Positions 11,030-49,771 of a DNA stretch of 64,000 nucleotides are shown piece by piece (positions within the stretch are counted from its first letter, which is position 1; each line of letters opens with the position of its first letter). Below the pieces are notes generated by a model. That model was not told where the DNA came from, did not search any database, and saw only the letters and a program-made list of their open reading frames with translations. The stretch is taken from positions 434,001-498,000 of the forward strand of contig JAIVFI010000014.1 of assembly GCA_025558095.1 (NCBI GenBank), given 5' to 3'. The translations under genes were made by a program, and so were the position numbers. The stretch is from Hyaloraphidium curvatum (Eukaryota > Monoblepharomycota > Hyaloraphidiomycetes > Hyaloraphidiales > Hyaloraphidiaceae).

Positions 11030-11116
11030 GCGCGGGTGATCCTGGGAGGTCCTGGGTGCGGCCTTCAAAGCCGTAGGGGCGGAGACGCCCAGCGGTTCGA
11101 CTCCGCCTCCTGCGCG
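11030..11116 (+). tRNA. tRNA-Sec (anticodon UCA), selenocysteine tRNA
   Basis: An 87-nt gene, the usual eukaryotic tRNA-Sec length, that folds as the atypical Sec form. The acceptor stem GCGCGGG pairs with CCTGCGC (one G-U), with discriminator G at 11116. The D stem is the long 6-bp type (CCTGGG with CCTGGG, two wobbles). The anticodon arm CGGC/GCCG carries the loop CTTCAAA, so the anticodon TCA sits at 11065-11067. The variable arm GGGCG-GAGA-CGCCC is long. The T stem is the short 4-bp type (GCGG/CCGC) with a perfect B box at 11094-11104. The D-arm start TGATCCT and the anticodon region match animal tRNA-Sec closely. A T5 pol III stop follows 7 bp downstream. A suppressor tRNA would not show the short T stem and long D stem. 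Confidence 0.93.
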
Positions 11117-11123
11117 AGTCCCC

Positions 11124-11128
11124 TTTTT
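11124..11128 (+). terminator. Pol III terminator of tRNA-Sec
   Basis: Run of five T residues 7 bp after the discriminator base of the tRNA-Sec gene, the standard RNA polymerase III stop. Confidence 0.85.
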
Positions 11129-18936: not shown

Positions 18937-19615
18937 TCAAAGCTTCGCGGAGATGATTGATTCCAACTGGGCAGGCGTCGTGCCGGATCCGAATCGGTCG
19001 ATTACGTTGCCCTGAGAATCCACCAAAAACTTCTCGAAGTTCCTGCCTATAAGTCAGCACTTGCAAGCACTTAACCGTCAGTCACCCCACCACTTGATCT
19101 GGCCAGGCTTCTGCCGCTTCAGTTCCTGGTAGAGGGGGCTCTCACTGGCCCCATTGACGTCCTGCTTTTCGAGAATCGGGAAGCTTACGTTGTACTTCGA
19201 AGAGCTGATTGACCGTTAGGTTAGCAAGAGGAAGCAGGGGGGGACGCACCAGAAGTCGAGGATCTGCTCTTCGGTGCCGGGTTCCTGGGCCCCGAACTGA
19301 TTGCAAGGCACGCCGATGATCTCCAGCTTGGGCTTCATCTTCTCGTAAAGCGCCTGGAGCCCCTTGTACCTGAGCACGCAACCACTGAGCTTTGACAGTC
19401 TCCCAAACATAGTCCACGGTTCACGCACTGGGGAGTGTAGCCGCACCGCGACGCGACATTCACCACGAGAACGTGCTTGCCCTTCAGATCACTGAGCGGG
19501 AAGTCCTGGTGCTTTGCGTCCTAACAAAGTTGAGGTCGATGTGAATCCGGTGATCCTGGTTGCTGCGAGCCCGTCGCAATCGTACCTTCACGACCAGCGA
19601 GTGAAAACTGGACAT
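18937..19615 (-). CDS. Glutathione peroxidase/thiol peroxidase (Cys type), cytosolic
   Basis: 153-residue peroxidase; five short exons 19615-19586, 19520-19429, 19369-19250, 19204-19091 and 19042-18937, with introns of 45-65 bp. The peroxidatic residue is Cys (codon TGC) in VASRCGYTPQYKG, joined over intron 2. The resolving Cys and catalytic Gln lie in GVPCNQFGAQEPG; the Trp-Asn pair is in KWNFEKFLVD over intron 4. The layout is that of fungal Gpx2/Hyr1 enzymes, which are reduced by thioredoxin and reduce lipid and hydrogen peroxide. Exon 1 encodes only MSSFHSLVVK. No targeting signal. It faces a second GPX gene 170 bp away. The organism has tRNA-Sec, yet this enzyme uses Cys. Confidence 0.92.
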
Positions 19616-19785: not shown

Positions 19786-20562
19786 ATGCGAACATTGTGG
19801 AGCCTGGTTGTCGTGTTAGCCGCGCTTGCTACGGAGCCCTACGTGCGCGAATGGAGGTCCTCGGCGTCCACAAAGCTGGAAAGCGTTCACGGATTCTCCG
19901 TCACGACTGCGGACGGGAAGGACGTCAGACTGGCCACGCTCATCGGCGGCAACATCACCCTGATTGTCAATACCGCGTCGTACTGTGGCCTGACGCCGCA
20001 ATATGCTGGCCTTGAAGCCTTATACCGGAAGTACCGGGATCGAGGGTTCACAGTGTCTGTCTCGTTGTCGCCCTTGCCTTTCTAGGACGCTAGATTGACG
20101 GCGGATGCATGTTCCTTTAAGCCTAGGCGCACCGTGCAACGGTTTCGGCGCGCAAGAGCCCGAAGACATGCCCTCCATTCTCGCGTTTACGTCGAAGGAA
20201 TTCGGGGTCTCTTTCCCAATGCTCTCCAAAGTGGAAGTGAATGGGCCGAACGAGCATCCGCTGTTCAAATTTCTGAAGGATCAGAAGGCGTCTCTCGGAG
20301 GACAACGAGATATTCAGTGGAACTTTGCAAAGGTGGCAAGCCAGAGGGTGAACTTTTCAGTGCCGTTCCTAACGCTGGCCATCAGTTTCTCCTGGATCGC
20401 AGGGGGTTTGTCCGGGAACGCTTCCTCCCTACTACGAGCCCGGAGGCAATCGAGCCTTACATTGTCGAACTCCTCGAGGAGACGGGATCGCGGACTTCTT
20501 CGAAGTTTCCACGGGCGCTGGACAACTTTGTGGCGATTGGCAGGTGGCTGCGAGTACTGTAG
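19786..20562 (+). CDS. Glutathione peroxidase-like protein with N-terminal signal/anchor
   Basis: 218 residues; exons 19786-20054, 20122-20332 and 20386-20562 (introns 67 and 53 bp). The N-terminus [15 protein letters not shown] is hydrophobic, suggesting a signal peptide or anchor, so this copy is probably secretory, unlike its neighbour. The peroxidatic Cys (TGT) is in [24 protein letters not shown] keeps the resolving Cys and catalytic Gln but has Gly where CNQFG is usual; the Trp-Asn pair is in QWNFAKFLLD over intron 2. The C-terminal 40 residues extend past the normal family end. It is divergent in sequence from the minus-strand GPX, so the pair is not a recent duplication. Confidence 0.87.
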
Positions 20563-32115: not shown

Positions 32116-33549
32116 ATGAACAGGCTGTTCCGGCCTGCAGCCAGACTAGCAGCCGCAGGAGCTACCATCTTCGTCGCCGAGCAACCATTTCCTTCGGCCG
32201 GCCCGGCTTCTCTGCGCTTCCACGCCCAGTTCTTTGCCGACGCGTCGGCGAAGCTCCACACCTCCCCTCCTTCCTCCGCCATGGCCCCTGTGCCCCACAC
32301 GAATGGCTCTGCGCCCGAGGGCCAGAGGAAAGTCAAGGTCCTGATTGTCGGTGAGTGGCACGCGCTGCGATTCCGCGTCCCATGGCGTTCCCTGATCTCG
32401 GTTCCTCTCCTCTGTTGCGGCGCAGGCTCCGGACCCGCCGGACACACCGCCGCGATTTACACGGCGCGGGCCATGCTCAAGCCCGTGATGTACGAGGGTT
32501 TTCTTGCGGGAGGAGTCGCCGCTGGAGGCCAGCTGACGACGACGACGGATGTGGGCTCCAATTCGGAACCGCTGGGGACCCGGCTGACGTCCGGCCATCC
32601 GACAGGTTGAAAACTTCCCCGGATTCCCCACCGGAATCAGCGGAACCGAGCTGACGGACGCTTTCCGGAAGCAATCCGAGCACCACGGGACGGAGATCAT
32701 CACCGAGACCATCACCAAGGTGGACCTGACGAAGCGGCCCTTCCTCGCGTGGCCCGAGGGCACGGAGGACCAGGAGATTGCGCCGTTGGCCGCGGACTCG
32801 CTGATCGTCGCCACGGGCGCGACCGCGAAGCGGCTCTTTATTGCCGGGGAGGACAAGTACTGGCAGAGCGGGATCAGCGCGTGCGCCGTGTGCGACGGTG
32901 CTATCCCCATTGTGGGTGTGCTTTGGAGGTGCTTGGAATCTCGCTGACGTCTGCCCTTTTCAGTTCCGGCAGAAACCCCTGGTCGTCGTCGGCGGCGGCG
33001 ACTCGGCCGCCGAGGAGGCACTATTCCTCACGCGTTACGCGAGCAAAGTCTACATGCTCGTCCGACGGGACGTTCTGCGGGCCTCCAAAGTGATGGCCAA
33101 CCGTGTGTCCCACCACCCCAAGGTCGAAATCATGTGGAACACCATCCCGGTAGAGGCAAAGGGGGACAGGCTGCTCAAGGAGCTCGTCGTCCAGGACACC
33201 AAGACGGGGGAGAAGAGGACGATGGAGGTCAATGGGCTCTTTTACGCCATCGGCCACGTGTGGGTAGCCTTCTTTGGTACAGATCAGCGACAATGTACTG
33301 ACTTTTCGATCTCGCAGTCCCAACACCCAGATCTTCAAGGGCTCCCAGCTCGAGATGGATGAAGATGGCTACATCGTGACGAAGCCGGGGACGACCTTGA
33401 CAAACATCGAGGGCCTGTTTGCCTGCGGAGACGTCCAGGACAAGGTGTACCGCCAGGCCGTCACCGCCGCCGGTTCGGGCTGCATGGCCGCGCTCGAGTG
33501 CGAACGCTGGTTGGAGGCCCAGGAGGACGACGAGCCGGCGAAGCTGTAA
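32116..33549 (+). CDS. TRR1: Thioredoxin reductase (low-molecular-weight, fungal/bacterial type)
   Basis: 397 residues; exons 32116-32350, 32426-32550, 32606-32911, 32964-33259 and 33318-33549. The N-terminal 55 residues are Arg/Ala-rich before MAPVPHTNG, so a mitochondrial form (or dual forms from ATG 32281) is likely. FAD motif [16 protein letters not shown] over intron 1, [12 protein letters not shown] over intron 2, redox centre [13 protein letters not shown] motif [13 protein letters not shown], and [20 protein letters not shown]. It reduces thioredoxin with NADPH and so supports the peroxidases encoded 12 kb away. This is the flavoprotein class with CxxC, not the large Sec-containing animal type. 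Confidence 0.94.
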
Positions 33550-34177: not shown

Positions 34178-34619
34178 TGACCGCGCAGACAGCTTGCGGG
34201 TTAGGTTTGGCGCCCGAAGGGCGCGCAAGGTGCGCCTCCGCCGCCTGAAAGGCGGCCGGAGGCCGCCCAAACGGCCCCATCCTCTCCAGGAGCACAGGAA
34301 AGAGTCGGAATGGCGCAGTGGTCTACCGCGGAAGATCGAATTACCCGGATACGGTCCGGTTCCCAGGTCGGGCGGAGCCCGACCGAAGATCACTTCCTTG
34401 GAACTCATCCAAACCTTCACAGTGGCATCCATCTGGCACCAATCTGCACGAATTAGGTTTACTGACCGCGCAGACAGCTTGCGGGTTAGGTTTGGCGCCC
34501 GAAGGGCGCGCAAGGTGCGCCTCCGCCGCCTGAAAGGCGGCCGGAGGCCGCCCAAACGGCCCCATCTTCTCCAGGAGCACAGGAAAGAGTCGGAATGGCG
34601 CAGTGGTCTACCGCGGAAG
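34178..34619 (+). repeat. Direct duplication carrying a tRNA 5' half
   Basis: A block of about 157 bp at 34178-34334 recurs at 34463-34619 (offset 285 bp) almost unchanged. It contains GC-rich inverted segments (GGCGCCCGAAGGGCGCGC; CGCCTGAAAGGCGGCCGG) and ends in the 5' half of a tRNA-Ser gene. The first copy lost the tRNA 3' half, the second runs into the complete gene. Unique spacer lies between them. Confidence 0.88.
34304..34345 (+). pseudogene. Truncated tRNA-Ser (5' half only)
   Basis: Matches the first 40 or so bases of the complete tRNA-Ser gene at 34589, including the A box, but lacks one T in the anticodon loop and diverges in the intron; no T arm or 3' acceptor strand follows. It cannot make a tRNA. 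Confidence 0.85.
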
Positions 34620-34700
34620 ATTCGAATTACCCGGATTCCGGTCCGGAGACGTTGCATCTTCTCCTCTCCGAGGGCGCAGGTTCGAATCCTGCTTCCGACG
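34589..34700 (+). tRNA. tRNA-Ser(CGA) with intron
   Basis: Acceptor strands GTCGGAA (34589-34595) and TTCCGAC (34693-34699), discriminator G. The D arm contains a perfect A box TGGCGCAGTGG; anticodon stem GAAGA (34616-34620) pairs with TCTTC (34657-34661), with loop TTCGAA... and anticodon CGA at 34623-34625. An intron of about 29 nt (34627-34655) follows base 37. The variable arm is long (CCTC-TCC-GAGG), as in serine tRNAs. The T arm GCAGG-TTCGAAT-CCTGC has a perfect B box, and a TTTT stop lies at 34711-34714. tRNA-Ser(CGA) is intron-containing in yeast as well. It is the only complete copy here and the apparent parent of the satellite downstream. Confidence 0.88.
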
Positions 34701-37700
34701 AAATGGTTCCTTTTGCCTTCCTTGCTGTTTTGCACCACGTTCGCGGCGCCGGCCGCACGGCACCCTCCGAGCGCCGGGGCCATCACCTCCACCTGTGCGC
34801 CGATGCGACCTCTCCTCGGGCAGCAGGTTCCGAATCCTGCTTCCGACGAAATGGTTCCTTTTGCCTTCCTTGCTGTTTTGCACCACGTTCGCGGCGCCGG
34901 CCGCACGGCACCCTCCGAGCACCGGGGCCATCACCTCCACCTGTGCGCCGATGCGACCTCTCCTCGGGCAGCAGGTTCCGAATCCTGCTTCCGACGAAAT
35001 GGTTCCTTTTGCCTTCCTTGCTGTTTTGCACCACGTTCGCGGCGCCGGCCGCACGGCACCCTCCGAGCGCCGGGGCCATCACCTCCACCTGTGCGCCGAT
35101 GCGACCTCTCCTCGGGCAGCAGGTTCCGAATCCTGCTTCCGACGAAATGGTTCCTTTTGCCTTCCTTGCTGTTTTGCACCACGTTCGCGGCGCCGGCCGC
35201 ACGGCACCCTCCGAGCGCCGGGGCCATCACCTCCACCTGTGCGCCGATGCGACCTCTCCTCGGGCAGCAGGTTCCGAATCCTGCTTCCGACGAAATGGTT
35301 CCTTTTGCCTTCCTTGCTGTTTTGCACCACGTTCGCGGCGCCGGCCGCACGGCACCCTCCGAGCGCCGGGGCCATCACCTCCACCTGTGCGCCGATGCGA
35401 CCTCTCCTCGGGCAGCAGGTTCCGAATCCTGCTTCCGACGAAATGGTTCCTTTTGCCTTCCTTGCTGTTTTGCACCACGTTCGCGGCGCCGGCCGCACGG
35501 CACCCTCCGAGCGCCGGGGCCATCACCTCCACCTGTGCGCCGATGCGACCTCTCCTCGGGCAGCAGGTTCCGAATCCTGCTTCCGACGAAATGGTTCCTT
35601 TTGCCTTCCTTGCTGTTTTGCACCACGTTCGCGGCGCCGGCCGCACGGCACCCTCCGAGCGCCGGGGCCATCACCTCCACCTGTGCGCCGATGCGACCTC
35701 TCCTCGGGCAGCAGGTTCCGAATCCTGCTTCCGACGAAATGGTTCCTTTTGCCTTCCTTGCTGTTTTGCACCACGTTCGCGGCGCCGGCCGCACGGCACC
35801 CTCCGAGCGCCGGGGCCATCACCTCCACCTGTGCGCCGATGCGACCTCTCCTCGGGCAGCAGGTTCCGAATCCTGCTTCCGACGAAATGGTTCCTTTTGC
35901 CTTCCTTGCTGGCGGGCATCACCTCCACCTGTGCGCCGATGCGACCTCTCCTCGGGCAGCAGGTTCCGAATCCTGCTTCCGACGAAATGGTTCCTTTTGC
36001 CTTCCTTGCTGTTTTGCACCACGTTCGCGGCGCCGGCCGCACGGCACCCTCCGAGCGCCGGGGCCATCACCTCCACCTGTGCGCCGATGCGACCTCTCCT
36101 CGGGCAGCAGGTTCCGAATCCTGCTTCCGACGAAATGGTTCCTTTTGCCTTCCTTGCTGTTTTGCACCACGTTCGCGCGCCGGCCGCACGGCACCCTCCG
36201 AGCGCCGGGGCCATCACCTCCACCTGTGCGCCGATGCGACCTCTCCTCGGGCAGCAGGTTCCGAATCCTGCTTCCGACGAAATGGTTCCTTTTGCCTTCC
36301 TTGCTGTTTTGCACCACGTTCGCGGCGCCGGCCGCACGGCACCCTCCGAGCGCCGGGGCCATCACCTCCACCTGTGCGCCGATGCGACCTCTCCTCGGGC
36401 AGCAGGTTCCGAATCCTGCTTCCGACGAAATGGTTCCTTTTGCCTTCCTTGCTGTTTTGCACCACGTTCGCGGCGCCGGCCGCACGGCACCCTCCGAGCG
36501 CCGGGGCCATCACCTCCACCTGTGCGCCGATGCGACCTCTCCTCGGGCAGCAGGTTCCGAATCCTGCTTCCGACGAAATGGTTCCTTTTGCCTTCCTTGC
36601 TGTTTTGCACCACGTTCGCGGCGCCGGCCGCACGGCACCCTCCGAGCGCCGGGGCCATCACCTCCACCTGTGCGCCGATGCGACCTCTCCTCGGGCAGCA
36701 GGTTCCAATCCTGCTTCCGACGAAATGGTTCCTTTTGCCTTCCTTGCTGTTTTGCACCACGTTCGCGGCGCCGGCCGCACGGCACCCTCCGAGCGCCGGG
36801 GCCATCACCTCCACCTGTGCGCCGATGCGACCTCTCCTCGGGCAGCAGGTTCCGAATCCTGCTCTGCTTCCGACGAAATGGTTCCTTTTGCCTTCCTTGC
36901 TGTTTTGCACCACGTTCGCGGCGCCGGCCGCACGGCACCCTCCGAGCGCCGGGGCCATCACCTCCACCTGTGCGCCGATGCGACCTCTCCTCGGGCAGCA
37001 GGTTCCGAATCCTGCTTCCGACGAAATGGTTCCTTTTGCCTTCCTTGCTGTTTTGCACCACGTTCGCGGCGCCGGCCGCACGGCACCCTCCGAGCGCCGG
37101 GGCCATCACCTCCACCTGTGCGCCGATGCGACCTCTCCTCGGGCAGCAGGTTCCAAATCCTGCTTCCGACGAAATGGTTCCTTTTGCCTTCCTTGCTGTT
37201 TTGCACCACGTTCGCGGCGCCGGCCGCACGGCACCCTCCGAGCGCCGGGGCCATCACCTCCACCTGTGCGCCGATGCGACCTCTCCTCGGGCAGCAGGTT
37301 CCGAATCCTGCTTCCGACGAAATGGTTCCTTTTGCCTTCCTTGCTGTTTTGCACCACGTTCGCGGCGCCGGCCGCACGGCACCCTCCGAGCGCCGGGGCC
37401 ATCACCTCCACCTGTGCGCCGATGCGACCTCTCCTCGGGCAGCAGGTTCCAAATCCTGCTTCCGACGAAATGGTTCCTTTTGCCTTCCTTGCTGTTTTGC
37501 ACCACGTTCGCGGCGCCGGCCGCACGGCACCCTCCGAGCGCCGGGGCCATCACCTCCACCTGTGCGCCGATGCGACCTCTCCTCGGGCAGCAGGTTCCGA
37601 ATCCTGCTTCCGACGAAATGGTTCCTTTTGCCTTCCTTGCTGTTTTGCACCACGTTCGCGGCGCCGGCCGCACGGCACCCTCCGAGCGCCGGGGCCATCA

Positions 37701-37838
37701 CCTCCACCTGTGCGCCGATGCGACCTCTCCTCGGGCAGCAGGTTCCGAATCCTGCTTCCGACGAAATGGTTCCTTTTGCCTTCCTTGCTGTTTTGCACCA
37801 CGTTCGCGGCGCCGGCCGCACGGCACCCTCCGAGCGCC
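34701..37838 (+). repeat. 148-bp tandem satellite derived from a tRNA-Ser 3' half
   Basis: About 21 head-to-tail monomers of 148 bp, nearly identical. Each holds the tRNA trailer with TTTT stop, some 100 bp of downstream sequence, then CTCTCCTCGGGCAGCAGG and TTCCGAATCCTGCTTCCGAC, which is the variable arm, T arm and 3' acceptor strand of tRNA-Ser with an extra C that breaks the B box. Variants: a 100-bp monomer at about 35877-35976 (48-bp deletion), a 1-bp loss near 36176, loss of G near 36706, a 5-bp duplication near 36864, and G-to-A changes near 37154 and 37450. The unit has no plus-strand stop codon in any frame, so three overlapping ORFs of over 1100 codons appear; they are by-products. 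Confidence 0.95.
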
Positions 37839-39737
37839 GGGGGCAATACCTAGCCCACGCACCCGGCCTCACAGCTCAAGAGACGGCTCTGCTTGTACAT
37901 GCACCCCGATACTGCACCAACATCGGATGCCCGTTTCTTTCAATTCTCGATGGTGCTTTGGATGCTTGCGGCAAAGATCGGCCGGCCTGTCGATCTCGAT
38001 CTCCTGCGAGAACGATCGAAGCGCTGCCGGCCGGCCATTGTCCCCACATCCAGTCGTGACATTGATTGGCAACACAACAATCTGGCGGTCTTTATCTTTG
38101 TCTCCGTCGTCCTTTTCTAGTAATTATCTCCTTATCAGATGCCAGCTGGTGGGTGAGGGCAGGCCCTGCACAGTCAAGGCCAGCCACGGATCACAGTAAG
38201 CGGCTGTCCACCGCCACTTCGACATCCGATGACGGATCCGCATGTCCGCCCTACTAGCATGCTTGCCTTGTCTCAAGAACATCTTTGCGGTCGAGCGCTG
38301 CAGTGATGGGCTCGGAAACGAGCAGGTCAAGCCGGCCCAGCATGATGGGTCTGTCTCCGAGCATGCAACCCGCTTCCTCCCCGGGAGCACCGCGGGCGGC
38401 TCGTCGCGTCGCCGGACAGACTCGATGCTTCCGCGCCCTTGCCCTGCGCTGGCGCAGACGCGTTCGCGAGCCGCGCCGGAGGGCCGCGCCGACGCCGGGA
38501 CCCGTACCTCGCGCTACCCCTGTCTCCACCCTATCGCGGCACCTGTTCCCCGATGCGAGTTGACTTGCGTTTCCCGTGCCATGTGGTCCCTCCTGCCGCG
38601 GAGAGACCGTCGAGGCGTCTAGTCGCTCTCCAGACGCGGCCCGGAATGGCCAGGTTGCCGCGGAATCGTCTTGGGGTGCCACTTCGCCGGCACCGCGGCG
38701 CTACGGCCCTTTCCCTATCGAGAGGCGATGCAAATTGATGTCGATGGGCAGGAGCACGGAGAGGAACACCGAATCTGGCTGCCCGACCGTCTTTGCGCCG
38801 CATCCGGGTCCGCTCGACGGGACACAGACCTGGACCGTTCTGCGTGTCGACCATCCTTTGTGGTTGTCTTCATACCGCTCCGAAATCGCACCGAGCCACT
38901 CTTGACCGTATACCTTGCCAACGGGCACTCGACGGGCCTGCCGTTCGGAGCCGATCCTTGACGAGGTCCTCAGTGGGCCAGAAGGAGCTGCGCCAAAGTC
39001 GACGCCTGTCTCTGAACTGGAACAGCCATTTGCCAGCCTGAAAGAACCCTTCTCAGAATGACTTCCGAGCCTGTTCCGATCGAGGCTTGTGCTGGCCCGC
39101 TGGTTCGTACGCCGACGAGGATCACGACCTTCTGCTTTCGCCTTCTGATGATTTCGTCGTAGTTCTGGCCCTCTGTCTTTCTTCCTCGTCTCTTTTAGTG
39201 CCTACAGCTATCGCTTGACCAACCGCCTCGGACTCTCCTAGAGCCGCCTTTCCGCATTCATCCTGGGCACGGCGATCGCCGCTTCAGCGCCAGGATGCAG
39301 CGAACCTTTATGAATAGAAAGATAGTAGCATTGATCTGAGCGAATCAGGGCACTTGAAGTTGGGTTGCACGGAAAGGTTGGTCGGGGCGCCGATCGCGAC
39401 GGCCAGCCTCGAATCTCGATCGGCGCGTCCGTTTTCTTCGGCCGACTCTCTCGCTCTTGAGGGCCGCAAAAACGACTCCGGCCCGGCGGAAGCAGCGGCA
39501 GAAAAGGGCTGAAGCTGCCGTGGGCGCGGAGGCGCCGAATTCGTCGCCCCTGCGCGAGATCTGGCCCCCCGCTGCTTCCTCGCGGCACGCGCGCCGCCGG
39601 GCTGTTGAAGATCTGCGGCGGCCTCGGTCGGGCTCCAGCAGTGCTCACGGACCCTTTTGCTGCCCTCCTCGACCGATCAGAGGTCCCGCGGACGGTAGTC
39701 GCCTCGGCTGGGCCGTGCGCGCTGCGCTGCGATCGCG
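37839..39737. other. 1.9-kb interval without a confident gene
   Basis: No family match or clean spliced gene model. Short open stretches exist on both strands, for example from ATG 38242 (MSALLACLPCLKNIF, 126 codons) and from ATG 38729 (MQIDVDGQEHGEEHR), the latter running to a plausible hydrophobic end before 38961. Base composition drops in GC at 38050-38130 and 39100-39240. The final 500 bp probably serve as promoter of the large gene that follows. Confidence 0.5.
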
Positions 39738-42736
39738 ATGCCCGCGATGGACGGACGGCAGGCGCTGCTGGCACTCGAGGGCCTTATCATGCAAAAGGCC
39801 GGGCAGGCGCGGATGCCCGTTGATCTCTTTCGCATCGGCTTTTGCGCCCTCTTCAAGTCCGGGACCCTGGCCTACATCGACCTCGGCAAGCGCACCTTCG
39901 CCCTGCGCCTCGGCCGGGACCATGCACACGTGCCGCCCAAAGCAGGGTGCAATCACTCAGCCTACTTCAAGAACTTCTACCCCGCGGGCGTCGAGGGCGC
40001 TGTCGTGGACGTGGAGATCGAAGCTGCGGAAGGCGGCGACCTGCTGATCGTGCGCGAGAGCTCGGACGAGCACGCATACGGCGGCGGCACGGGGAACACG
40101 GCGTACCGAAAGAAGATGCCGCCGCACGGGCTCCTCAAGGAGCTGGGGCCGTTGAAGCGCGAACTTTGCCTCGGCCACGACCTGGTCCCGCACGAGCGAG
40201 ACGGCTGCGAGGTCGTCGTCATCGCGCTCACCATGATCGTGTGCGGAAACAAGTCCGCCAACATGAACTTGTACGGCTACTGGTGGTGGGATCCCCTCCG
40301 CAAGGCGACGCAGCTCTCGGGCATGCACAAGGTCGTGCTCCAGCGCCATGTCGCGATCGTCGGGACCGCGGCGCCCAAGCTGCAACACAAGTTCCTGAAT
40401 GGCGACAAGCCGTTCCCGATCAACGAGGTTTACGAGGATGAGTACCGTTCGCCGAGCATCCACTACCTCAGCGAGAAGTTCGGGCATGCGCCGATCCCCT
40501 TCCTCAACGAGTACCCCGACGAAGACAGCGCCGACGTCCGGAGGCTCAAGCTGACGGACGATGCCATCGAAGTCAACACGAAGAAGCTGCTGGTTCGCCT
40601 GCGCAAGCTCGAAAGGACCACGCTCGTCGTCGTTTCGGGCGATCGCAAGACGCATCTCACCTCGGTGCCGACGGCCAAGTGGTGGCCGGGCGACGCCCAC
40701 TCGTTCCTCGGCAAGAGCTGGTGCGCGGTCGTGAAGCTGGATGAAGAGACGGGCAAGTGCTACTGCATCGTGACCGTCAGCGACTCGGCCATGGGCACGA
40801 GCTACGGCGTCGGCACGGCTTTGGCCATGTTCGACGAGTACTGGAGCCTTTTTGCGGAGTACGTCGAGAAGCTCGCCTGGTTCTCCGCGGCCTTGTGCAA
40901 GTACTTTGCGCCGAAGTGCTACGAGCACGCCCGCCTCCTCCGCCGGATCTTCGCGTATCTCGGGCCCGAAGTCCTGCGCAAGGCGTCGAGGCTCGTGGGC
41001 GTCTTGAAGCACAGCAAAGGCGGTGGCAAAGGCAGGCTTCGTCCGACCGGTCGGTCAAGCCGAGTACTCATGGAGCGCCCCATGCCCGCAGCCCTCACGG
41101 ATCCGCACTCGCTCAAGGCGATCAAGATCCCCGAAGCCCTCCGATCTGCCCCCCGCATCACCGCTGCCGACGTGCCCGCCGAGTACGAGAAGGTGCGCGG
41201 CGAGTGGGCCGAGCGCCGCCGCCTCCTTCCCTCGCGAGGTCGCGGCGAGGCCGCGTCCGCCGCCGCCGAAGTCGAGAACGAAACCGCGCTCGTTCTCGGG
41301 GAGCTCGTCGACGACGACCAGGAGATCGACGAGGCCTTCGCCGCGTTGACCGTGCCGTCCGAGGAGGCAGCCCTCGCCGCGCCGGCCGCCAAGAAGGGCG
41401 ATCGGGACAGCGGCCCCAGCAAGGAATCCCGCCAGGACGCCCTCCGGCACCGCGAGCTCGCGCGCAAGACCCAGATCCGCAACCACGCCTTCTTCTCCAC
41501 CGGCGGAGAGCTTGACGCGCTGCCCCGCGAAGAGCGAGAGGCGAAGCTGCGCGAGAGCGAGAGGGCAATCGGAGCGGCCTGGGCGAGGCACTACCAGCCA
41601 AACATCATCATGAAGGTCGCCGAGCATGGCCTCCTGCCGCCGTTCCCCGGCCTTACGCAGCCCCTCACGAAGCCTTCAATCCTCGAGATGCCGAAAGACG
41701 ACTACGACGCTGTTTACCGCGTCGCGCTCGAGCAGTTCTACGTGCTGCGCCGGATTACCCCGTATTCGCCTCTGGCCGAATTCATTCGTTGCCTTTTCTG
41801 CGGGATGTTGATGTGCAAGGTCGTTCAGGGAGACCCCACCGGCACCCAGCTCCCCGACATCATCCACGCCACGTGCCACGAGGGCGACACGCCGTGCCCC
41901 CTGTTCAAAGGCCGCGAATCCGGCGCCGCCGTCAAAATCTCGCGTGGGTTCATGTTCGTCAGCAGCTCGGCCGAAGGACCGGAAATCATGCCGGCCGCGC
42001 ACATCCTCGAGCGGTTCGTGGCGGCAAAGGCGACGGCCGCGGCGATCACGCAGCGGAAGATCGTCGTCGTTGGCCACCACCTCTTCAAGATCCAGTTTAT
42101 CGAGTTCATACTCGACAGGAGGGACGCGGGGGAGCCCGGGGCCGCCTTCGTCGCGACCTTTTTCCGAGACCACTTCGCCGACCTCCTCGCTTCGATCCCT
42201 CAGCTGCTCCGGCGCGTCGGCTTAGCTGCGGATCCGGAGATCGAGATCACGAAGACGCGTCTGGACGCTCTGAAGAACTCGTTCGCTCACGTCTTCGACC
42301 ACCAGCTCAAGGCGCTGCTCAAGAAGCTCGACGGCCAGATCCGGAAAGTCGGGGAGCGCAAGCGCGTGAGGCCCAACGAGGGGACCGACACGGCTGACGT
42401 CCCTCTCTACGCCCTCGGAGACCGCGAGGTCGTGATCCGGCAGGGTGACCTAGACCGGGAAGACCGCACGAGGTGCTGGCCGGCAAGACTCCCGGTCCCA
42501 GGAGCGGACCACCGACGCTGTTTGCTCCGGAGCGCCACTTCGGCGACGAGTCGGAGGACACGAAGGGAGGAGGGGCCAAGGCGGCAAAGGGCCGCGGGGG
42601 AGGGGGCGCGAAGACAAAGACCGGGAGTTCGGCGGGAGGCGATGGGCCGCGCAAGAGGAAGGCAGCGGCGCCTGCCAAGGCGGAGGAGAAGAGCGGGAAG
42701 AAGCAGAAGACCCTGAGTTTCGGGTCGGAGAAGTGA
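39738..42736 (+). CDS. Large orphan protein with Cys-rich patch and PIP-box-like tail
   Basis: About 955-980 residues; no family recognised. One long exon 39738-~42428, then a short intron ending before GTG at 42473 (donor at 42366 or 42429; both fit the phase, acceptor CACGAG is weak), then 42473-42736. The N-terminal 450 residues look globular (GTLAYIDLGKRTFALRLGRD, NKSANMNLYGYWWWDPLRK, VVVSGDRKTHLTSVPTAKWW). A charged linker follows, then a second globular part (about residues 650-870) with CLFCGMLMC and CHEGDTPC, a possible zinc site. The basic tail ends KKQKTLSFGSEK, similar to a PCNA-interacting peptide. Codon bias is like the housekeeping genes, so it is probably expressed. Not obviously a transposase: no catalytic triad or terminal repeats were found. 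Confidence 0.7.
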
Positions 42737-48177: not shown

Positions 48178-49502
48178 ATGCCCCCCGCCGACCCGCCTCC
48201 CCCGCGCCCCCCGAAATGCCCGCGCTGCGCGTCCCTCCGCCTCCCGTGCCGCCCGCCCTCCCCCTGCCCGCCGTGCCGCGCCGCCGGACTGCCGTGCCGC
48301 ATCCCCGAACGGAAGGCGCCGGCGCCGCGGAGGGAGACGGCGGGGGAGTTCGGTGCGGCGTGGAAGGTGCGGGAGATGGGGACGGGGAACCTGAAGGAGG
48401 CGGCTAGGAGGGCGGAGGGGGGGGAGGGGTGGTGGTTGGAGAGGAGGAAGGGGAAGAAGGGGAAGGGGAGGGGCGGGGAGGGCAACGAGGAAGGCGAGGG
48501 CCAGGCAAAGGACGAAGAGGCGGACTCGGACGCGTCCGGGGAGGCAGAGGAGCGCACGGAGCAGGAAGACGACGCAGAGGACCCGCCTGCCGCGCAGGGA
48601 CGGAAGCGCAAGCGCTCCGCGACGCCCCCGCGCCGGCTGGCCGCCAAGGACCGCGCCAAGTTCCTTTCCACCATCCTGGACCCGCTACCTTCCCCTCCCC
48701 TGCTCCCGACTTCGGTGCCAGCCACACCCGGCGGTGCGGAGAACGCGCCCGAGCCGCCGCTGTTTGTGTGCAGCGCTCCGGACGCGGTCGACTACGACAC
48801 CACCCGCCCCGGCGGCCGCTCGCCCTCCCTCTCTGACAACGACGCCCTCCTTCCCCCGCCGCAGGACGACCGCTTCGCCCTCCCCCCTTCCGTAAGCTCC
48901 CTTCACCCCCAACTCTATTCCGCTGACCCCCTTTCGCAGTCCCTCCTCGACGCCCTGCACCTCCTCCTCTCGCACCGCGCCTCCCTCCTCCCCCCCGCCG
49001 AGCGCGCGCGCGCCCTTGGCGCATTGGACTCGGGGGCGCTGCTGGCGTTCGGGATGCTGGTGCAGGAGCAGGCGCGGGGGTTGAGGGAGGGGCATGCTTG
49101 TGGGTGTTTTCGCGGGCGGTCGGGGTGCGTGTGGAAGCTGATTCGCGTTGTTGGTGTGGGGCAGATGGGAGGGTGGATGTCGAGGAGGCGAGGGAACGGG
49201 GGCCGGGGAATCCGTACCGGGCCGAGCCAAAGGGGAAGAAGGGCAAAGGGAAGCGGAAGCGCGGGGGTGCTTCCGAGGGCGGGGAAGGGGGAGCTTCCGG
49301 GCAAGAGGATGCGGATGAGGGTGGTGGCGGTGGAGAGGGCGTGGACGAAGGGGCGGACGACGCGGAAGGGAACGCGAGCGGGACGGGGAGCGTGGCGGCC
49401 GGCGATCGTGCCGCGCGCGGCTCGCCGTCCTCCCCGTCCTCGCCTTCGGACGACTCTTCACCATCCTCTGATGACGAGGACTCGGCTTCGGACTCGGAGT
49501 AG
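48178..49502 (+). CDS. Zn(II)2Cys6 fungal-type transcription factor
   Basis: 403 residues; exons 48178-48891, 48940-49099 and 49165-49502 (introns 48 and 65 bp; the first is in frame and could be read through). Residues 14-40 have the exact Gal4 cluster spacing C-x2-C-x6-C-x5-C-x2-C-x6-C (KCPRC, LPC, SPCPPC, LPC), which coordinates two zinc ions and binds CGG-type sites. This fold is essentially fungal. After it come Lys/Glu-rich charged segments, a nuclear-signal-like GRKRKRS, a helical part in exon 2 (SLLDALHLLLSHRASLL) and an acidic Ser-rich tail (SSPSSDDEDSASDSE) that could activate transcription. No middle-homology region is seen. Target genes unknown. Confidence 0.83.
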
Positions 49503-49771
49503 TGCTGTTCGAAGGTGGTTGGAGCGCCTCCAGGGGCTTCCGACCACGCGGCGGTCGGAGGGCGGATTCCGGGACGAATCGCGGCGGATCGCGGGCGCGA
49601 TGGCCCCGGATCTGATGTATGGATGCTGCTGATGGATGTCATGGTCGTGGATCGGGCGTCCCGAGCCGTTTGAGCTGCAGGATTTGGACCAACCGAGGGA
49701 TCCCCGCGTGACCTCCCTCACCCCGCGGTGGTGGCGGGTTCTCAACTTCTTCTCCCTAGCCAAAGAGGAAG

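Follow-up and report, generated by a model that had tools for sequence, protein, structure and literature searches.

The window, by which we mean the whole stretch of 64,000 nucleotides from Hyaloraphidium curvatum that was analysed, contains a predicted gene for the selenocysteine (Sec) tRNA. Two glutathione peroxidase-like genes and a thioredoxin reductase gene, all of Cys type, are also present. The features are as follows.

11030 to 11116, + strand: tRNA-Sec gene of the eukaryotic 9/4 type, 87 nt long with discriminator G73 counted in (ARAGORN, RF01852, fold)
11065 to 11067, + strand: UCA anticodon within the loop CUUCAAA (sequence, ARAGORN, fold)
11094 to 11104, + strand: intact internal B box GGTTCGACTCC in the T arm (read from the sequence)
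11124 to 11128, + strand: T5 run, which would probably act as an RNA polymerase III terminator (read from the sequence)
18961 to 19500, - strand: glutathione peroxidase-like gene with a catalytic Cys (NVASRCG, at about 19460), a Cys homologue outside the selenoproteome
19900 to 20332, + strand: second glutathione peroxidase-like gene with a catalytic Cys (NTASYCG, at about 19969)
32425 to 33525, + strand: low-Mr thioredoxin reductase with CAVC, at least 4 exons (tblastn with yeast TRR1, 57-72% identity, E=4e-98)

The tRNA gene was identified in several ways. ARAGORN predicts a tRNA-SeC with the anticodon tca at 11030-11116 (+), and the covariance model RF01852 matches 11030-11115 over its full length (model positions 1-91) with 78.2 bits and E=2.2e-14. 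This is 31 bits higher than the gathering score of 47, the comparison with a Sec cut-off that the original prediction had proposed as a check. When the whole 31.9-Mb assembly was searched with RF01852, the tRNA-Sec of the window was the sole match. ARAGORN by itself makes many false tRNA-Sec predictions in fungi and is unreliable there, and in the Secmarker benchmark RF01852 gave no false positives in 42 Sec-less fungal genomes (PMC5330540). An ARAGORN match by itself is therefore weak evidence in a fungus, which the RF01852 benchmark offsets.

Folding of the free RNA, predicted from the sequence alone, gives a cloverleaf of -45.9 kcal/mol. In this predicted fold the acceptor has 9 positions with one U.U mismatch, the D arm has a 6-bp stem and a 4-nt loop, the anticodon stem is 6 bp, the variable arm is 5 bp, and the T stem is 4 bp. 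The gene is like the RF01852 family in its full-length match, in having all of the stems, and in G73, but differs from it in the acceptor mismatch and in a slightly shorter variable arm. The original prediction had described an 87-nt tRNA-Sec with UCA in the loop CTTCAAA and a discriminator G, which ARAGORN, RF01852 and the fold confirm. It had also described a 4-bp T stem, a 6-bp D stem and a long variable arm, all of which reappear in the predicted fold, and an intact B box and a T5 stop, both of which are present in the sequence. On these predictions, the gene at 11030-11116 is a genuine tRNA-Sec gene.

The other genes of the window were also as described, with one qualification. Both glutathione peroxidase genes use Cys, as claimed. 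The claim that the thioredoxin reductase is of the CxxC type stands for the gene in the window; elsewhere in the genome there is another thioredoxin reductase, of animal type, that ends in GCUG.

The presence of a tRNA-Sec gene had led to the expectation that SelD/SPS2, SecS, PSTK, eEFSec and SBP2 would be encoded in the genome. Every one of them was found. The set that was searched comprised SecS, PSTK, SPS2, eEFSec and SBP2, this last through its RNA-binding domain, and all 5 are in the same assembly. Sec machinery is thus present, the absence of which had been named as grounds for rejecting the tRNA. SecS is on contig C8 (C8:364279-366000), scores 230.7 bits with TIGR03531, or 287.7 with its neighbours, against a cut-off of 224.85, and contains the active-site motif STDKNFMVPIGG. 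SPS2 (C2:990953-991939) scores 189.1 bits with TIGR00476 (selD; cut-off 125) if its U is taken as C. It is itself a selenoprotein gene, with a TGA within WAELKG-U-GCKVQQADL. From the G domain through its final domain, the eEFSec gene (C1:403960-406025) is colinear with its human counterpart.

PSTK and the SBP2 domain are each in two exons. The two exons of PSTK (C2:720164-720465) are a P-loop exon and a DDNMYYSSMR exon, with the motifs DDNMYYSSMR / LYLATPLETCLERNALRPP. Taken separately they are under the curated cut-off of TIGR03575, because the gene is split and divergent, and the identity was assigned by motif. The joined model matches Pfam KTI12, a family to which PSTK belongs. The L7Ae RNA-binding domain of SBP2 (C31:198353-198713) has 55% and 32% identity in its two exons, values that are approximate. 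Exon models were joined by eye.

Several other matches to the machinery models were rejected. A candidate eEFSec at C3:473603 (locus L014) is mitochondrial IF2, the true eEFSec being on C1, and the remaining TIGR00475 matches are of the mitochondrial EF-Tu, eEF1A, eRF3/Hbs1, eIF2-gamma and GTPBP1 types. Two SelD-like matches on C31 are ThiL. These ThiL genes (C31:90101 and 77548; L009/L010 1501-2157) are near-identical, intronless, of bacterial type (284 bits) and 12.5 kb apart, and one of them adjoins a THI5/NMT1-like reading frame. This neighbourhood is possibly a transferred thiamine cluster. As a separate observation, a U3 snoRNA (47.6 bits; locus L002 517-747) is upstream of the SecS gene.

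Genome-wide, a TGA occupies a known Sec site in the frame of 9 genes, and these frames are otherwise intact. These are SPS2, SelenoW, a second SelenoW-like gene, three SelenoU genes, a deiodinase-like gene, a high-Mr thioredoxin reductase and SelenoO. At least one selenoprotein had been expected elsewhere than in the window, and all nine lie outside it. SelenoW was located by a PF10262 search of the genome; it reads VYCGA-U-G, with an intron directly 3' of the Sec codon. The SelenoU, deiodinase-like, thioredoxin reductase and SelenoO genes were located with one query made of concatenated human selenoproteins, and the TGA in these genes is at the human Sec position or an equivalent site. The three SelenoU genes have PG-U-xxCREEA, and SelenoU2 is on C23. 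The deiodinase-like gene (C3, locus L069 827-1259; PF00837 E=1.6e-23) has GSHS-U-PPF, with Sec at the active site. The last exon of the high-Mr thioredoxin reductase ends ...VSGC-U-G-stop (GCUG; Gly-Cys-Sec-Gly), and that of SelenoO ends CSCSS-U-VSCRVSLLQ-stop (CSSU). The frames of SelenoW, the deiodinase-like gene and SelenoU3 terminate at TGA, so TGA is still an ordinary stop and has not been reassigned. In this assembly, about nine gene models are likely to be cut short or wrongly annotated at UGA.

For SelenoH, SelenoT and Sep15 there was no credible match when the concatenated human query, which covered these but not SelenoK, was compared with the genome. The copies of GPX, MsrA and MsrB that were seen all use Cys. 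Among rejected candidates, an MsrA with Sec at a split codon proved to be Cys, the acceptor yielding GGA T/GT TTC; a weak Sep15 match on C28 was put down to chance; and C20:442984 is a Cys-type Rdx gene.

Canonical form-2 SECIS elements are present in 7 of the 9 selenoprotein genes, 15 to 141 nt past the stop. The distances are +54 for SPS2, +57 for SelenoW, +49 for SelenoU1, +64 for SelenoU3, +58 for the deiodinase-like gene, +141 for the thioredoxin reductase, and 15 nt for the second SelenoW. In six genes the layout is C-ATGAN, then helix II (11 to 12 nt) and AAA, in most cases a small hairpin, and then the helix II partner and TGAN. Apart from the SECIS element, the six downstream regions have no other obvious similarity. 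Among 2798 control segments, each 220 nt long, 6 reached such a score, and the chance of reaching it in 6 of 8 genes is about 3e-15. Downstream of SelenoU2 and SelenoO no canonical SECIS was found, only weak by-eye candidates at about +40 and about +37, and the SPS2 element was not detected by RF00031 at E<=10. MAFFT misaligned the SECIS elements, and a hand-trimmed alignment was used for model R1. In this alignment two-sided changes occur in 10 of 11 helix pairs and 89% of cells are paired, counts that are an illustration only since an alignment fitted by hand biases them towards the structure.

Could the SECIS signal find selenoprotein genes by itself? The genome was searched for the SECIS core CATGAN{12,13}AAAN{20,31}TGA, and the matches were then ranked by helix II score. 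The pattern matched 103 times and its reversal 46 times. Among the matches listed, the best 6 of 92 scored by helix II were 5 known genes and one new place, on C41. This new place is the second SelenoW-like gene (locus L075, reverse strand), which was discovered solely through this search. It reads ...WVDFLVGVK-UGA-G / FLPAYLHIRSEVEKEFG..., has its SECIS 15 nt past the gene end, and has an intron after the Sec codon in the same place and phase as that of the first SelenoW. It is slightly under the cut-off of both the SelT/SelW/SelH model (28.2 bits, E=1.7e-6; cut-off 34.2) and Pfam Rdx (21.6 bits; cut-off 22.6). GVKU replaces CxxU in this gene and the usual cysteine is missing. A SelenoW paralogue that lacks the CxxU cysteine may be a novel feature. 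Because a SECIS signal defined on other genes led to a correctly placed TGA, this gene is the strongest single argument for a functional system.

The genome is fungal, on the evidence of Lys2 and eEF1A. A Lys2-type alpha-aminoadipate reductase, almost complete in two adjacent frames or exons (683.5 and 746.5 bits, 1430 bits summed), is on C23 together with SelenoU2. The eEF1A carries the opisthokont insertion GEFEAGISKDGQT plus a fungal-like stretch, and its best PDB match is yeast, with 840 bits compared with 824 for mammals. The tRNA-Sec, machinery and selenoprotein genes are spread over 11 contigs (C1, C2, C3, C8, C14, C15, C20, C23, C31, C41 and C43). C14 is the contig of the tRNA-Sec, with the fungal-type low-Mr thioredoxin reductase in the same window. 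GC content is 57-72% throughout the window, with no break at the tRNA-Sec. The possibility of a chimera with non-fungal DNA had been raised with the original prediction; the genome is fungal and has no signs of chimerism. The 5.8S rDNA was not found in this otherwise contiguous assembly, and the rDNA may be collapsed or missing from it.

Sec has been reported before in fungi. According to the papers that cite it, the study of Mariotti et al. (2019, Nat Microbiol 4:759) reported Sec in nine early-branching species of Chytridiomycota, Zoopagomycota and Mucoromycota, 7 of the 9 belonging to the Harpellales and the others including Gonapodya and Bifiguratus (PMC12611240, PMC11378755, PMC10386755, PMC7988114). 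One of these papers denies that Sec is encoded in fungal proteomes; its search was of annotated proteins, and these as a rule end at UGA (PMC7988114). In the present genome the dispute over fungal Sec is answered by four independent lines: the tRNA, the enzymes, UGA at catalytic sites, and SECIS. The view that Sec was lost in most fungi and has been reported only from some early-branching phyla, which accompanied the original prediction, agrees with the nine species as they are cited. H. curvatum is, on its predicted genes, a further Sec-using fungus and is like the others in having Sec machinery and selenoproteins outside the Dikarya; the trait itself was already reported in early-branching fungi in 2019.

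The best explanation of these results is almost certainly that the window holds a functional tRNA-Sec gene of a non-Dikarya, early-branching fungus that has kept a complete eukaryotic Sec pathway by descent. From the sequence we infer that the gene would be transcribed, its product charged and UGA recoded. SerRS would charge tRNA-Sec with serine, PSTK would phosphorylate the seryl-tRNA-Sec, and SecS would convert it to Sec-tRNA with selenophosphate from SPS2. The Sec-tRNA would then be brought to UGA codons by eEFSec, the recoding of UGA being directed by form-2 SECIS hairpins of the 3' UTR bound by SBP2. Vertical inheritance of the pathway is probable on grounds of parsimony and the literature.

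Other explanations have to be weighed against this. Most fungi are without Sec and false ARAGORN matches are common in them (PMC5330540), which might suggest that this fungus no longer uses Sec and that the tRNA is either a relic or a false positive, for instance a divergent tRNA-Ser or an opal suppressor. This is exceedingly improbable given the full 9/4 structure, G73 and a score 31 bits past the cut-off, and given that all of the machinery searched for is present together with nine selenoprotein genes whose frames are intact besides the Sec TGA. Nor is a genome-wide reassignment of TGA, for example to Cys or Trp, any more credible. It would account for in-frame TGA in several genes, but each TGA is at a catalytic Sec site, three of the frames themselves end in TGA, and no ordinary gene was seen in which many TGAs are conserved in frame; the SECIS elements and the Sec machinery would be left unexplained.

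The origin of the genes might also be other than fungal descent. The deiodinase-like gene and the GCUG thioredoxin reductase are animal-like, as would be the case if the Sec genes came from a contaminating alga, protist or animal, or from a chimeric contig. With Sec genes on eleven contigs, one of which carries Lys2 beside SelenoU2, contamination is very unlikely; the unbroken GC content at the tRNA-Sec, the fungal-type low-Mr thioredoxin reductase and the fungal eEF1A signature also argue against it. A real Sec system acquired horizontally from an alga or animal is a little easier to entertain, though still improbable. Sec occurrence in Fungi is patchy, and canonical SECIS and animal-like families are unlike most reported fungal selenoproteins. 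Against this, acquisition would need the transfer of more than 12 unlinked, mostly intron-bearing genes, so that parsimony favours retention, and the 2019 study reportedly favoured vertical inheritance of fungal Sec.

Retention by descent leaves the question of how the system in H. curvatum compares with others. According to the 2019 study, most fungal selenoproteins are reportedly without a consensus SECIS, whereas 7 of the 9 predicted selenoproteins here have a canonical form-2 SECIS. This near-complete canonical SECIS across the selenoproteome may be a novel feature. The system is like that of animals in its form-2 elements (ATGAN ... AAA ... TGAN, at 15 to 141 nt past the stop) and in its SPS2, SelenoW, SelenoU, SelenoO (CSSU), deiodinase family and thioredoxin reductase ending in GCUG. 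It differs from animals in the lack of a credible SelenoH, SelenoT or Sep15, in its Cys copies of GPX, MsrA and MsrB, in the GVKU paralogue of SelenoW, and in having a fungal-type low-Mr thioredoxin reductase alongside the Sec enzyme. We somewhat favour the view that this fungus retains an animal-like Sec system of ancestral type, in which all SECIS are canonical and the selenoproteins number at least nine, and that its genome encodes a SelenoW-like GVKU protein whose Sec lacks the CxxU cysteine partner. If so, the non-consensus SECIS of other fungi would be derived. With its canonical SECIS, this genome is a good test case for SECIS change in other fungi.

The window has other features besides these. 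A 992-aa open frame at 39738-42716 has no match in Pfam. The region 48178-49632, read by eye as Zn2Cys6, likewise had no Pfam match and was not used as evidence. At 34663-37842 a 148-bp unit is repeated in tandem about 21 times, almost without differences between the copies. The array starts inside a tRNA gene that contains an intron (34589-34700; RF00005, 43.9 bits), in the 3' half of that gene, and each unit repeats the 3' end of the tRNA, but with the T arm altered.
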